Positions 4,049-16,416 of a DNA stretch of 62,096 nucleotides are shown one piece after another. Source of the stretch: Prochlorococcus sp. AG-459-E08 (GTDB lineage: Bacteria; Cyanobacteriota; Cyanobacteriia; PCC-6307; Cyanobiaceae). Each line of letters starts with the position of its first letter. Position 1 is the stretch's first letter. The DNA is taken from contig QCRB01000005.1 of assembly GCA_003209425.1 (NCBI GenBank), forward strand, positions 1 through 62,096, given 5' to 3'. Under the pieces are notes generated by a model. It made no database searches. It was not told where the DNA came from and saw nothing but the letters and a program-made list of their open reading frames with translations. The position numbers and the translations under genes are program-made.

Positions 4049-4783
4049 TTAAGAAGAAGTATTAGAAGAAGCACGTAATTGAGAAAATAATTTTGAAAAG
4101 GTTGGATTTGTAGTGTTATTTTTCTCATCTGGATTAACTATCCCAGCTGAAATTATTGTTTTAAAAGCATCTTCAACAGAAATATTCAACTCCTTTACAG
4201 AAGACTCAGGAACTAAGGTATACCACCCAGTAGTTGGGTTTGGTGCTGTAGGGATAAAAACACTTAGTAACTTTTCTTCCAATTCTTGCTGCAAAGAGGG
4301 GCCAACATCTCCAGTTACGAAACCCACGCTATATAGTCCCTCGCGTGGATATTCAACTAAAACTACTCTTCTAAATCGATTGGATTTATTACTTAAGAAA
4401 GTTTCGAGTAATTGTTTAAGAGTTTTATAAACTGCCCCAGCTACGGGAATTTTTGATAAAGTACCCTCTCCAAATTCTAACAACCATCTGCCTACAAAGT
4501 TTCTCGCCATTAAGCCTATGAGTAAGATGGCTAGTAAGGGAACAGTTAAACCCAAAGTCAGGTTTATCAAATCTTGTAATAAAGGATTTAAATTAATAAA
4601 AGGATTTAATTGCTTAGGAACAGAAGTAACTAATGTTAAAACAAATTTACTAACTAATGATGATAACCATATAGTTGTTGCTAAAGGTATTACAACCAAT
4701 AATCCTGCTATAAGATCATTTTTTAGATCCTGTTGGAGCCTAGATCCTAGGTTCGAATCTTGATTTTGATTAGATTCAACCAA
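4049..4783 (-). CDS. DUF502 (COV-family) inner membrane protein
   Basis: This 244-residue protein belongs to the DUF502 family, related to plant COV proteins, whose biochemical role is unknown. Two hydrophobic segments are visible, at about 25-47 (DLIAGLLVVIPLATTIWLSS region) and about 75-93, followed by a soluble domain with the family features GRWLLEFGEGTLSKIPVAG and VVLVEYPREGLYSVGFVTG. The only start I find is TTG at 4783; no in-frame ATG precedes the first membrane segment. It is probably the first gene of the run DUF502 - nusB - ftsY - phosphatase - argH. The 145-base gap to divergent queG should hold both promoters, but I see no convincing boxes there. Confidence 0.85.
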   Translation of the reverse strand: MVESNQNQDSNLGSRLQQDLKNDLIAGLLVVIPLATTIWLSSLVSKFVLTLVTSVPKQLNPFINLNPLLQDLINLTLGLTVPLLAILLIGLMARNFVGRWLLEFGEGTLSKIPVAGAVYKTLKQLLETFLSNKSNRFRRVVLVEYPREGLYSVGFVTGDVGPSLQQELEEKLLSVFIPTAPNPTTGWYTLVPESSVKELNISVEDAFKTIISAGIVNPDEKNNTTNPTFSKLFSQLRASSNTSS

Positions 4784-4928
4784 AATAACGTTTTTAACTA
4801 TATTAACTTTACTAATAATTTAACTGTTTTTACTTAGTTAGGATATATTTTCTTTTAATAAATTTAAATTATTTATTAGTTTCTTCTCCAAAATAACTTT
4901 TACGAGAAATCATGTACATAATAAAGAA

Positions 4929-5882
4929 ATGATCTATACCGTTGAAAACAAGAAGGAAATAAGTAAAAAATTGAAGGGAAAAGCTATTTTAGAAGGTTTT
5001 GCAATGGCTGGAATAGCTGCAATACCAGGCAGTTCGCGAATAAAGTTAAGAACTAAAGCATTAGAGAGATGGTTATCAAATAACCACCATGCTGAAATGA
5101 AATGGATGGAAGCAGAAAGAAGGAAAAACATAAGCTCACTTCTTAAGGGTGCAAAAAGTGTTCTATGTGTTGCATTTACTTACATTAGTTCGCACAACAA
5201 AAACAACAACAACAACTTCTTCAAAGTAGGTAAATTTAGTCAAGGAGAAGATTACCATAAAGTAATTTATAAAAAATTAAAAAATATTGGGAAATGGATT
5301 AACCAAGAAATTCCAGATTGCAAATGGAAAATTTGTGTTGATACGTCCCCTCTTCTTGAAAAAGCATGGGCTGAAGAATCAGGTCTTGGTTGGATAGGTA
5401 AAAATAGTAATTTGATAAGCAAAAACAATGGTTCATGGTTTACTTTAGGTTTTATGATCCTTACAAAAGATTTAATACCTGATAATCCTCATCAATCACT
5501 TTGCGGAAAATGTGAAATTTGCATTGAACATTGCCCAACAAAGGCAATAGTAGAACCCTTTGTCATACAATCAGACCTATGCATTGCTTATCACACAATA
5601 GAAAGTAGAGAAAAAACTATTCCAAAAAAAATAGAAGAAAATTTAAATGGATGGGTTGCAGGATGTGATATATGCCAAGATGTATGCCCATGGAATAAAT
5701 CAGTGCCTCACAACAATACATCTGAGACTACACCAAAAGAATGGATTAAAAATCTTAATATTGATTCTTTAAAATGGGATGATAAAACTTGGGAAGAAAA
5801 TCTTAAAAGAACCACATTAAAAAGAATTAAACCATGGATGTGGAAAAGGAACATTGAAGCAAGTTTAAAGAATAAGAAATAA
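4929..5882 (+). CDS. queG: Epoxyqueuosine reductase QueG
   Basis: QueG reduces epoxyqueuosine to queuosine at position 34 of tRNAs, using cobalamin and two [4Fe-4S] clusters. The 317 residues have the N-terminal DUF1730 domain with VDTSPLLEKAWAEESG; Asp138 there matches the proposed proton donor. A ferredoxin-like part follows, with the first cluster CGKCEICIEHCP (C192, C195, C198, C202) and a second set including C218, C246, C249 and C253 (CDICQDVCPWN). Length is slightly below the E. coli enzyme (about 380 residues). A run of asparagines at about 90-96 (AAC repeat in DNA) is a low-complexity loop. queC and queE lie at 46921-48279, so the pathway is split. It reads into the TPR gene four bases later. 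Confidence 0.95.
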   Translation: MIYTVENKKEISKKLKGKAILEGFAMAGIAAIPGSSRIKLRTKALERWLSNNHHAEMKWMEAERRKNISSLLKGAKSVLCVAFTYISSHNKNNNNNFFKVGKFSQGEDYHKVIYKKLKNIGKWINQEIPDCKWKICVDTSPLLEKAWAEESGLGWIGKNSNLISKNNGSWFTLGFMILTKDLIPDNPHQSLCGKCEICIEHCPTKAIVEPFVIQSDLCIAYHTIESREKTIPKKIEENLNGWVAGCDICQDVCPWNKSVPHNNTSETTPKEWIKNLNIDSLKWDDKTWEENLKRTTLKRIKPWMWKRNIEASLKNKK

Positions 5883-13116: not shown

Positions 13117-13824
13117 TTATATCCAAGGGTCATCTTCTTTTTTTTCACTAAACGGTATAGATGCTCTGTCATTATTATAAAAACTTTTTTGTTTAAAATC
13201 TAAGTTTTGGTTAATATCTTCATCTTCTTCAAGCCAATCCTCAAATCTATTAGAAGCTATGTTTTTCATATCATCAAATCTATTAAATATTTTTTTTCCT
13301 TTTTGTATGAATTCATTTTTTATACTTGATTTTATTAAAGATAAATCATCTAAAGAATTTTTGTCACAAAATACCAAACCTGGTTGTTGATCATTAATAT
13401 TGTCAATATTTAATTGCCATCTACTAGAACCTGGAATCTTAGGATTTGATCGAGAAACTAAATAATATTTAATGTCGCCCGTTTTCAAATTAAATAAAAA
13501 ATCTGCAATAAAACCAATTTTTAAACCATTTATATTTATCAAATTAGCTTCTATTAAAGTTGGAAATCTATTTAAAGTTGCTAAATCAGAAATAGCTGGA
13601 TCTCCTTTGACATAAACTTCATTATCTATGATTTGTCTAATTTGATTTAAGCGCCAAACATTTCGTTTTAAATCAAAATTTGAAGGACGAGAGTACCATC
13701 CTAAAATTCTATGAACCGGAGGATGCATCCAAACATTTTCACCTTTTCCATAGTTAAGAACCTTATTACCCTTAACACTAAAATTTAGTAAGTCACTTAA
13801 TAATATTTCTTTAGGTAATTTCAA
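13117..13824 (-). CDS. PRC-barrel domain protein next to dnaN
   Basis: This is a 235-residue soluble protein. Two beta-rich PRC-barrel-like halves can be seen: residues about 52-85 (VWRLNQIRQIIDNEVYVKG) and about 90-130 (LIEANLININGLKIGFIADF, then TGDIKYYLVSRSNP). The last 70 residues are acidic and low complexity. PRC barrels occur in RimM and in photosynthetic reaction-centre H subunits, and often bind RNA or protein; a specific role cannot be assigned. It lies one base after dnaN and four bases before purL, so it should be co-expressed with the sliding clamp. I recall the same neighbour of dnaN in other marine picocyanobacteria, which suggests a conserved unit. Confidence 0.8.
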   Translation of the reverse strand: MKLPKEILLSDLLNFSVKGNKVLNYGKGENVWMHPPVHRILGWYSRPSNFDLKRNVWRLNQIRQIIDNEVYVKGDPAISDLATLNRFPTLIEANLININGLKIGFIADFLFNLKTGDIKYYLVSRSNPKIPGSSRWQLNIDNINDQQPGLVFCDKNSLDDLSLIKSSIKNEFIQKGKKIFNRFDDMKNIASNRFEDWLEEDEDINQNLDFKQKSFYNNDRASIPFSEKKEDDPWI

Positions 13825-13825
13825 G

Positions 13826-14983
13826 TTAAGTACGAACCTGAACAGGCATGACTAAATATGTAAAAGAATTAAAATTATCTTCAGGCACTAAGATAGCTGG
13901 GGTAGTTGCGAGATTACACTTCAAGAGAACATTATCAGAAGCAATAACTTTTAAACCTTCTAAAAGATATCTAACGTTAAATGCAATATCAAAATTTTCT
14001 GCAGAATTTGAAACAGGAATTAATTCATTAGCGTTTCCTATATCTTGCGCATCTGCACTTATTGAAGCTAAATCTGTATTATCTAATTTAATCTTAACAA
14101 CGCTACTCTGCTGATCAGCTAAAACAGCAATTCTTTCTAATGCATCAATTAATTTTTGAGTATTAAAATTAAAAATCTTAGAAAAAGTATCAGGTATTAA
14201 TTGTGAATAATTTGGATAATTACCTTCAAGGGTTCTTGTTGTAATTATTTGATTTGAAGAAATAAAAACAACCTGACCCTTGTCATAAAATAATTTTATT
14301 GCATTTTCTGAGCTTCTTAAAGATACTAATTTTTCAATTTCTCTCAATGATCTAGTTGGAATAGTTACTGACAAATCACTTTCATTTATAGGTAAGTTAT
14401 CTGTATTTTCTATATGTTTTTCCTTACCAATCAATGCAACTGCCAATCTATGCCCATCTGTAGAGGCTGACTCTAAATAATTTTTTTTAAAAGTAAAGTT
14501 AACACCTGTAAGTAATTGCTTTGATTCATCATTACTACTAGCAAAAATGGTAGATTTCAAAGCTTTTAAAAAAGCACTAGGATCAATAGTTAACGAGGTT
14601 CCACTTTCAACAAATGGCAAATTAGGATATTCATCAGATGGTATGCCTTTTAGGTTAAATAATCCTCTATCACTTTTTATTAAAATATTATCTGAGGTCT
14701 CATCTACTTTTAAAGAAATTGGAGTTTCATGAGGTAATTTATTTACTATTTCAGATAAAAGTTTTGAAGGTATAGTAATAGCTCCACTATTTTTAACCGT
14801 TCCATCAAAAGAAGTTTGAATTCCTAAATTAAGGTCGAATCCTGTTAAGCTAATTTTATCAGTGCTTTGATCAGCTGTTAAAAGTATATTGGCAAGAATT
14901 GGATGAGTTGGTCTTGATGCAACTGCTTTGCTTACTAATTGTATAGCATTATTAAAATCATTTTGATTACAAATAATTTCCAT
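13826..14983 (-). CDS. dnaN: DNA polymerase III beta subunit (sliding clamp)
   Basis: DnaN is the ring-shaped clamp that tethers the replicative polymerase. The 385-residue length fits the family (366 in E. coli). It has the three-domain pattern, with SRPTHPILANILL near residue 23, STDGHRLAVALI near 178 and the C-terminal YLVMPVQVRT, close to the consensus MPMRL ending. The ATG at 14983 is followed upstream by the AT-rich gap with DnaA boxes. dnaN heads an apparent dnaN - PRC - purL - purF operon. dnaA is not adjacent, as is usual in cyanobacteria. Confidence 0.98.
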   Translation of the reverse strand: MEIICNQNDFNNAIQLVSKAVASRPTHPILANILLTADQSTDKISLTGFDLNLGIQTSFDGTVKNSGAITIPSKLLSEIVNKLPHETPISLKVDETSDNILIKSDRGLFNLKGIPSDEYPNLPFVESGTSLTIDPSAFLKALKSTIFASSNDESKQLLTGVNFTFKKNYLESASTDGHRLAVALIGKEKHIENTDNLPINESDLSVTIPTRSLREIEKLVSLRSSENAIKLFYDKGQVVFISSNQIITTRTLEGNYPNYSQLIPDTFSKIFNFNTQKLIDALERIAVLADQQSSVVKIKLDNTDLASISADAQDIGNANELIPVSNSAENFDIAFNVRYLLEGLKVIASDNVLLKCNLATTPAILVPEDNFNSFTYLVMPVQVRT

Positions 14984-15087
14984 CAGAATTTGGAACTTTT
15001 ATACAATATACTTTTTTCGTTAATTAAATTCAATAAGTTGATTTATTACTTTTTCTTTCTAAATAAATACTTAAAAAAATAAAAATT

Positions 15088-15099
15088 TAGTAGTAGTAG
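15088..15099 (+). promoter_or_regulatory. Candidate DnaA-trio array, (TAG)4
   Basis: Four exact TAG triplets sit four bases from a tandem DnaA-box pair. Read from the boxes outward, the plus strand is 3'-GAT-5' repeated four times, which is the reported orientation of DnaA-trios. These are single-strand DnaA-binding elements that begin strand opening. The run passes directly into an A/T-only stretch. Function is inferred from arrangement. Confidence 0.6.
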
Positions 15100-15103
15100 T
15101 TAT

Positions 15104-15121
15104 TGTGGAAACTGTGGAAAA
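15104..15121 (-). promoter_or_regulatory. Two abutting DnaA boxes
   Basis: TGTGGAAAC (15104-15112) is followed with no gap by TGTGGAAAA (15113-15121). Their reverse complements are GTTTCCACA and TTTTCCACA; the latter is the usual cyanobacterial DnaA box. Two boxes at 9-bp spacing lie head to tail on the same side of the helix series. Confidence 0.8.
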
Positions 15122-15166
15122 TTTAATTTAGATTATTATTTACTTATTATTTGGATCATTTAAGTA

Positions 15167-15175
15167 TGTGGAAAA
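15167..15175 (-). promoter_or_regulatory. DnaA box
   Basis: TGTGGAAAA is a second exact match to the reverse complement of TTTTCCACA. It has the same orientation as the abutting pair 46 bases away. Confidence 0.75.
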
Positions 15176-15255
15176 AAATCTTTACTTGTTGAATAAATTT
15201 AAATCTTTCAAATAAACAAAAAAACTTTCAACATATTGGATTACTTCTTATTTGT

Positions 15256-15294
15256 TTTTCAACAATCAAACTTTAATTTTAATTGATTTCCACA
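15256..15294 (+). promoter_or_regulatory. Two weaker DnaA-box-like 9-mers in opposite orientation
   Basis: TTTTCAACA (15256-15264) and ATTTCCACA (15286-15294) each differ by one base from TTTTCCACA. They lie on the plus strand, facing the left-hand cluster. Confidence 0.5.
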
Positions 15295-15315: not shown

Positions 15316-16416
15316 TTAATATCCTAATATTTTGGTTATGTTTGTTAATGAAGGTTCAATATTTTTCCTAAAAACAGCATCATTATTTTTAATAGCGCAA
15401 TCAGGATCTTTTAATCCATTACCAGTAAGAACGCAAACAATAGTGGATTCTTTTTGAATTCTATTTTTATTTTTAATTAATCCAGCAACTGATGCTGCAC
15501 TGGCAGGTTCACAAAAAACACCTTCTTTTGCCAAGATTTTATAAGCGTTGATTATTTCTTCATCTGTAACTGACTGAAAGTCTCCTTTACTCTCTTTTTT
15601 TACATTTTTTGCTTTTTCTCTATTAACAGGATTTCCAATTCTTATTGCAGTTGCAATTGTTTCTGGATTTTTTACTATTATATTTTTAACGAGTGGAGCT
15701 GAGCCTTCAGATTGAAAACCCATCATAATTGGTAATTTTAAATTTCTATTCATTTTTGAATATTCCTTGAACCCCAGCCAGTAAGCAGTTATATTTCCTG
15801 CATTTCCCATAGGAATACAAAGCCAATCAGGTGCAATACCTAAATCGTCAACAATTTCAAAAGCTGCTGTTTTTTGCCCTTGTATTCGATACGGATTAAC
15901 AGAATTTACAAGTTCTATTGGATGTTTTGCTGACAAATCTCTAACAATTTCAAGGGCTTTATCAAAGTTTCCATTGATCGATATTATTTCAGCTCCATAC
16001 ATTAAAGCTTGTGCAAGTTTTCCTTGTGCAACAAATCCTTCTGGAATTAAAACATAAGGTTTTAATCCTCCTCTTGAAGCATATGCTGCAGCTGCGGCAG
16101 AGGTATTTCCCGTGCTGGCACAAATTACTGCCTCACGGCCTTCTTCTTTTGCTTTACTTATTGCCATAGTCATACCACGATCTTTAAAAGATCCTGTTGG
16201 ATTTAGACCATCATATTTTAAAAAAACTTTGGTTCCATTTCCAATTAAATTGCTAATTGCTTGACTAAGAATAAGTGGTGTATTCCCTTCATTTAAAGAG
16301 ATAATAGGTGTCTTATTCGTAACCGGAAGATATTGTTTGTAGGCTTCGATTAAACCAGGCCATCTATTTTTTTTGTAATAAAGATTTAATTTATTTCTGA
16401 TTTTATTGAATAACAT
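15316..16416 (-). CDS. thrC: Threonine synthase
   Basis: This PLP enzyme converts O-phosphohomoserine to threonine. The 366 residues are the short bacterial-type form. The PLP lysine is Lys78 in [11 protein letters not shown], and the phosphate-binding loop [19 protein letters not shown] follows at about 100-117. The C-terminal part has [11 protein letters not shown] and [11 protein letters not shown]. It is downstream of the DUF1400-like gene by nine bases on the same strand and ends next to the putative origin. Confidence 0.96.

Follow-up and report, generated by a model that had tools for sequence, protein, structure and literature searches.

A basal unwinding system (BUS) has been described for the B. 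subtilis oriC, where DnaA boxes 6 and 7 stand beside a run of DnaA-trios (PMC6669920, PMC10721633 and PMC8287927; these and all other papers are cited from the excerpts available of them). In PMC8287927, BUS sequences are reported in 1755 of 2070 species. A BUS has one or two DnaA boxes, the better of which has no more than 2 mismatches, and at least three NAN trio units in the right orientation within 16 bp of a box. The published search rule asks for a middle A in at least three units, and the same paper suspected trios without a middle adenine. It also reports that unwinding by the DnaA of S. elongatus requires both boxes and trios. Given this survey and the S. elongatus result, DnaA-trios are not confined to the kin of B. 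subtilis, as the first-pass annotation of the DNA studied here had largely assumed.

The Prochlorococcus origin, which that annotation called poorly described, was placed between dnaN and threonine synthase in 2010 on the basis of GC skew and DnaA boxes (PMC2836286). Cyanobacterial origins adjoining dnaN and carrying TTTTCCACA boxes have also been predicted (PMC6323995), and a TTATCAACA box is listed for the linear chromosome of Cyanothece (PMC4674748). Because location, boxes and BUS activity are thus in print (PMC2836286, PMC6323995, PMC8287927), both the element and its mechanism are already known. The excerpts of PMC2836286, PMC6323995 and PMC4674748, unlike the present analysis, do not show a trio, a spacer or the arrangement of boxes in Prochlorococcus, and no title found in the open-licence literature deals with a trio in Prochlorococcus or with A-to-C changes in natural trios. 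As far as the literature searched goes, the base-level layout in Prochlorococcus, the class-wide fixed spacing and the natural alternation of A and C are new.

Layout of the dnaN-thrC gap

The window, meaning the whole 62,096-base stretch of DNA analysed, includes a 332-bp intergenic gap that is 80% A+T. The gene on one side (13826-14983) we take to be dnaN, and that on the other (15316-16416) is presumably thrC, encoding threonine synthase. The features are as follows.

13826-14983, minus strand: dnaN, sliding clamp, flanking the trio side (open frame, dnaN relatives, excerpt of PMC2836286)
15071-15087, no strand: A/T-only stretch beside the trio, continuing into the first TA of the trio (sequence)
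15088-15099, plus strand: DnaA-trio run of four TAG units (TAGTAGTAGTAG), 3'-GAT-5' outward from the boxes (read directly)
15100-15103, plus strand: 4-nt spacer TTAT from trio to box (read directly)
15104-15112, minus strand: DnaA box 1, TGTGGAAAC on the plus strand and GTTTCCACA on the minus strand (sequence, alignment)
15113-15121, minus strand: DnaA box 2, abutting box 1, TGTGGAAAA on the plus strand and TTTTCCACA on the minus strand (sequence, alignment)
15167-15175, minus strand: outlying DnaA box 3, TGTGGAAAA on the plus strand (sequence, alignment)
15187-15195, minus strand: box-like TGTTGA variant site TGTTGAATA, core in register in 77 of the 99 aligned genus loci
15225-15233, plus strand: inverted TGTTGA-type site CTTTCAACA, core in 76 of 99 genus loci
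15256-15264, plus strand: inverted TGTTGA-type site TTTTCAACA, core in 91 of 99 genus loci
15286-15294, plus strand: inverted DnaA box ATTTCCACA near the thrC end, core in 98 of 99 genus loci
15316-16416, minus strand: thrC, threonine synthase, flanking the box side (open frame; neighbour as in the excerpt of PMC2836286)

Direct reading bore out what the first-pass annotation had described: the (TAG)4 run, the four-base spacer, the abutting boxes (15104-15121), the third box at 15167, the A/T-only stretch across the trio from the boxes and the order 5'-trio-spacer-boxes-3' on the plus strand. The boxes that it listed are real, but its inventory was too short, since the conserved region reaches 15294 and holds four more sites.

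Box 2 is an exact TTTTCCACA match and box 1 has one mismatch, which agrees with the BUS rule for boxes. The four TAG units lie 4 bp from box 1 in the right orientation, in agreement with the rule for trios. The GC-rich spacer that is typical of a BUS but optional is absent from the window, where TTAT takes its place. With the B. subtilis BUS the site shares tandem boxes, a short spacer and, on the strand 5' of the boxes, repeated 3'-GAT-5' trios, as well as the trio-contacting residues of DnaA (PMC6669920, PMC10721633, PMC8287927). It differs in that its four TAG units are perfect and its spacer consists of A/T, the published spacer being GC-rich and 4 bp on average. The S. elongatus BUS, compared by description only, shows box- and trio-dependent strand separation on its own origin (PMC8287927). 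The position agrees with that of the predicted Prochlorococcus oriC between dnaN and threonine synthase (PMC2836286), and TTTTCCACA-type boxes likewise lie beside dnaN in the predicted cyanobacterial origins (PMC6323995).

The combination of trio, spacer and boxes is far beyond chance in the window. (TAG)4 occurs there once and in none of 100 shuffles, and a 24-mer made of the trio, N4 and TGTGGAAA has one match at up to 3 mismatches, versus 0.01 expected. The octamer TGTGGAAA alone is not rare: there are 6 copies in the window against 3.3 expected, a number equalled by 9 of the 100 shuffles. Four of the six fall inside the 332-bp gap, one of them on the opposite strand (15287-15294).

With high confidence, we read the site as the BUS of the Prochlorococcus oriC, and it is very likely where the chromosome first opens for copying. 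For DnaA binding, strand capture, melting and helicase loading we infer the following order. DnaA domain IV would dock on the two abutting boxes, and the AAA+ domains of further protomers would span the 4-nt spacer and reach the plus strand. These domains would take hold of the G and A in every TAG (3'-GAT-5') unit and pull that strand off. The A/T-only DNA to the left of the trio (15071-15087), presumably the first to melt, would then open for helicase loading. The sites at 15167, 15187, 15225, 15256 and 15286 probably help to load or regulate DnaA.

Conservation in Prochlorococcus

We found dnaN in 119 genomes of the genus and used 116 (all except G074, G121 and G123), which with two from the family search gave 118 loci. 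Three of these (L018, L047 and L189) had fewer than 100 bases upstream, leaving 115 testable. The trio, spacer and boxes occur upstream of dnaN in 114 of the 115, and 113 reach a module score met by none of 345 shuffled sequences. The three box-proximal NAN units are present in 111 and exact (TAG)4 in 92. The spacer is 4 nt long in 113 of the 114 loci carrying the module. The module lies about 105-140 bp upstream of the dnaN start in the window, and the distance is similar in most genus loci. The sole testable locus with no module upstream of dnaN is that of G081 (L188). The dnaN of this genome sits in a 624-aa open frame, which could represent a fusion, a rearrangement or a chimera.

An unsupervised alignment was made of the 99 genus loci with at least 300 bases, with L188 left out. 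Mean identity is 0.94 in the trio and box columns versus 0.79 elsewhere in the gap. The four G columns of the TAG run are 0.91-1.00 identical. The first-pass annotation had made its reading depend on the run being conserved alongside the boxes, and it is kept about as well as they are. Of 266 genus genomes, 161 contain a strict 18-base pattern, as do 65 of the 87 more complete ones, and the misses include incomplete genomes, trio variants and box variants; its reversed control was found in 7 of 266.

The position of box 3 is kept in a degenerate form, with G at 15168 and 15170 in 99 of 99 aligned loci. The exact TGTGGAAAA seen there in the window is unusual (5 of 99), and most loci carry TGTGTAAAA, AGTGGAAAA, TGTGAAAAA or GGTGGAAAA. 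To the right of the module, TGTTGA/TCAACA occurs at 2.40 per 200 bp in the genus versus 0.215 in shuffles. Elsewhere in the family (0.21 versus 0.15) and in the class (0.12 versus 0.19), there is little or no enrichment. Divergent members of the genus keep the three TGTTGA sites less well (9, 10 and 14 of 21 loci) than the others do (65, 62 and 74 of 78). These sites could be low-affinity DnaA sites. The TTATCAACA box of the Cyanothece linear chromosome (PMC4674748) resembles the TCAACA sites of the window.

The module in other cyanobacteria

The family set drew on 72 of the 103 family genomes outside the genus in which dnaN was found, and one more of the 103 came in with the class search. The class set came from the best 30 of 39 class genomes that gave loci, of which 27 lie outside the family, the 9 weakest matches being excluded. 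At a score attained by 0.3% of shuffles, the module is present in 62 of the 72 family loci outside the genus; for the 27 class loci outside the family, the corresponding figures are 0.7% of shuffles and 25 loci. Of the ten family loci outside the strict score, eight pass a loose score only and two fail even that. We prefer the strict family count because the loose score, passed by 70 of 72 family loci, is also passed by 12% of shuffles.

In the class, the module takes the form TAGTAGTAG, a mostly GC-rich 4-mer and tandem boxes. Spacer GC is 18% in 114 genus loci, 74% in 70 family loci and 87% in 25 class loci, so the A/T spacer is lineage-specific. The first-pass annotation, which had noted that the usual GC-rich cluster is absent, was thus right for this genome and its genus and not for their relatives. 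The distance from dnaN to the module varies from about 120 to 630 bp in the class, whereas the 4-nt spacing is constant.

The surroundings of the module also differ. The mean number of box-like sites with at most 1 mismatch is 9.0 per locus in the class (26 loci), 4.0 in the family (61 loci) and 3.8 in the genus (99 loci), and that of perfect boxes is 6.3, 0.8 and 0.4, respectively. These counts indicate a core common to all and a surround that is much richer outside the family. A one-for-one swap of class TGTGGA sites for the TGTTGA sites of Prochlorococcus was not apparent, as the positions do not coincide cleanly.

We now turn to the middle base of the trio. Middle A is kept in all three box-proximal NAN units (units 1-3) in 44 of 70 parsed family loci. 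G is kept at these units in 70 of 70, an invariance to be read with the parser in mind, which anchors on TAGTAGTAG and so favours TAG and a third-position G. A lost middle A has mostly become C, and this is commoner where local GC is high (Spearman 0.78 for 70 non-independent family loci). The exceptions, three family loci and three genus loci, have T or G as the middle base of unit 3.

Changes were counted on a dnaN tree built quickly from 91 rows (60 from the family, 25 from the class and 6 from the genus); the tree omits L092 and L096, with no dnaN frame, and L217 and L228, without the module. In one of several equally parsimonious reconstructions, the middles of units 2-4 show 15 A-to-C, 11 C-to-A, 1 A-to-G and 0 A-to-T changes, as well as single C-to-T, C-to-G and G-to-C changes. 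The same reconstruction gives 44 A-to-C, 56 A-to-G and 117 A-to-T changes in the 12 bases beyond the trio, which were taken at fixed offsets and not aligned. Among changes from A, the excess of C in the trio middle relative to the flank has a Fisher p of 3e-9, and of 2e-4 against A-to-G alone.

According to PMC10721633, cytosine bears, like adenine, an amine that contacts Asn187, and it supports strand separation in B. subtilis; cytosine at the trio middle also gave better growth of B. subtilis than G or T. The pattern in the GC-rich relatives, in which the middle A is replaced almost only by C while G is kept, matches the amine-capture model of that paper. We extend this to a natural trio rule, 3'-G(A/C)(T/C)-5', together with a recoding of the outer sites to TGTTGA in Prochlorococcus that would leave a strong core with weak sites. 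We give this joint proposal an even chance of being correct.

Origin position, DnaA and alternative readings

The window's own assembly consists of 51 contigs and is 69% complete; GC skew was therefore taken from relatives, and was sampled in 20 blocks each in G041 and G398. In G041, a one-contig member of the genus (20-kb blocks, with a gap from 1,587,000 to 1,718,791), the sampled skew is V-shaped and turns at the dnaN end, as expected from the first-pass annotation, with a local minimum about 3.6 kb from the start of the record. It is negative before dnaN and positive after it, and five inner blocks oppose the trend.

In G398, a genome of the class, no module was found over 900 bases upstream of dnaN. 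It stands instead, complete and with many boxes, 0.5 kb downstream of dnaA and close to the start of the contig (L254, around 1500), and dnaN is 3.08 Mb away from it, within an arm. The sampled skew rises over roughly the first 2.1 Mb of the contig and then falls, which puts a turning point at the module; 4 of the 20 blocks are flat, against the trend of their own arm or nearly zero. Given that module and turning point both adjoin dnaA in this genome, the module marks the origin rather than dnaN. The G413 locus counts against this simple picture, having tandem boxes upstream of dnaN but no trio. At the trio position it carries the unrelated sequence CGATCGCAC (L252, near 1500), and G413 may represent a lineage that no longer uses the trio. 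Overall, neither the conservation nor the skew tests refuted the reading as a chromosome opening site, which these sequence comparisons support.

Five residues of B. subtilis DnaA (Asn187, Ile190, Ile193, Arg202 and Glu228) hold or flank the trio bases (PMC10721633). The DnaA fragment of the window's own genome aligns with B. subtilis DnaA and has all five. Their equivalents are identical in 31 of the 31 genomes examined, namely this one, one close relative, 28 other family members and G398. Of 61 genus genomes searched, 52 yielded dnaA, and it was found in 21 of the 21 with a completeness of 90% or more. In 51 of these 52 genomes the open frame measures 466-475 aa; the remaining one is the window's own draft, in which the fragment (L001, contig C34, 1432-2247, minus strand) is open at the contig end. 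Its frame departs from those of its relatives after residue 266 and another gene follows, DNA similarity to a relative ends near that departure, and DnaA domain IV (PF08299) has no match in this assembly. A real loss of domain IV was considered and rejected, since the relatives are intact and DNA similarity stops where the frame departs. As the relatives carry an intact dnaA, we read the truncation as a draft break; it is probably a break or an amplification chimera in a 69%-complete draft.

Two other genomes have unusual dnaA matches. Contig C22 of G017 has two opposite copies (4195-4992 minus and 13179-13976 plus), and this doubling on one draft contig is probably an amplification artefact. 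On contig C1 of G250, the DnaA ATPase domain has more than 10 weak matches, scattered along the chromosome in frames of 305 or 430 aa; these are probably transposon helper ATPases.

We weighed three other explanations of the site. The module could be a DnaA-controlled promoter or leader element of dnaN, with the origin proper elsewhere, and its similar distance of about 105-140 bp from dnaN in most genus loci would fit this. However, the module of G398 is absent upstream of dnaN and lies beside dnaA, where the sampled skew turns, and in the class the distance to dnaN varies (about 120 to 630 bp) while the 4-nt spacing is constant. We regard this explanation as quite improbable. That the TAG run is a chance simple-sequence repeat beside two boxes might be suggested by the A+T content of the gap (80%), and three-base repeats can arise by slippage. 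Such a repeat is refuted by conservation: the 4-nt distance is fixed in 113 of 114 genus loci and a modified form occurs in GC-rich relatives, in addition to the lack of (TAG)4 in all 100 shuffles. We give it next to no credence.

Finally, Prochlorococcus might, like some cyanobacteria, replicate without requiring DnaA at this site, the module being a relic; DnaA-independent replication is described for Synechocystis 6803, Nostoc 7120 and Synechococcus 7002 (excerpt of PMC7198777). The strong conservation of trio and boxes speaks against a relic, as do the presence of dnaA in 52 of 61 genus genomes, among them all 21 at least 90% complete, its frames of 466-475 aa in 51 of the 52, and the V-shaped sampled skew of G041. 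We consider a relic very improbable, and retain the reading as a BUS.

The same module recurs across most of the cyanobacteria compared, and the site is thus a further example of a known origin element and not a new kind. Its class-wide 4-nt spacing points to a module that is old in cyanobacteria and tied to the origin rather than to dnaN. The natural A-to-C swaps of the GC-rich relatives are the counterpart of the laboratory result with cytosine in place of the central adenine; on this evidence, programs that look for origins should probably allow C there. If the proposed trio rule is true, a search rule that asks for a middle A would miss or under-score real origins in GC-rich lineages.
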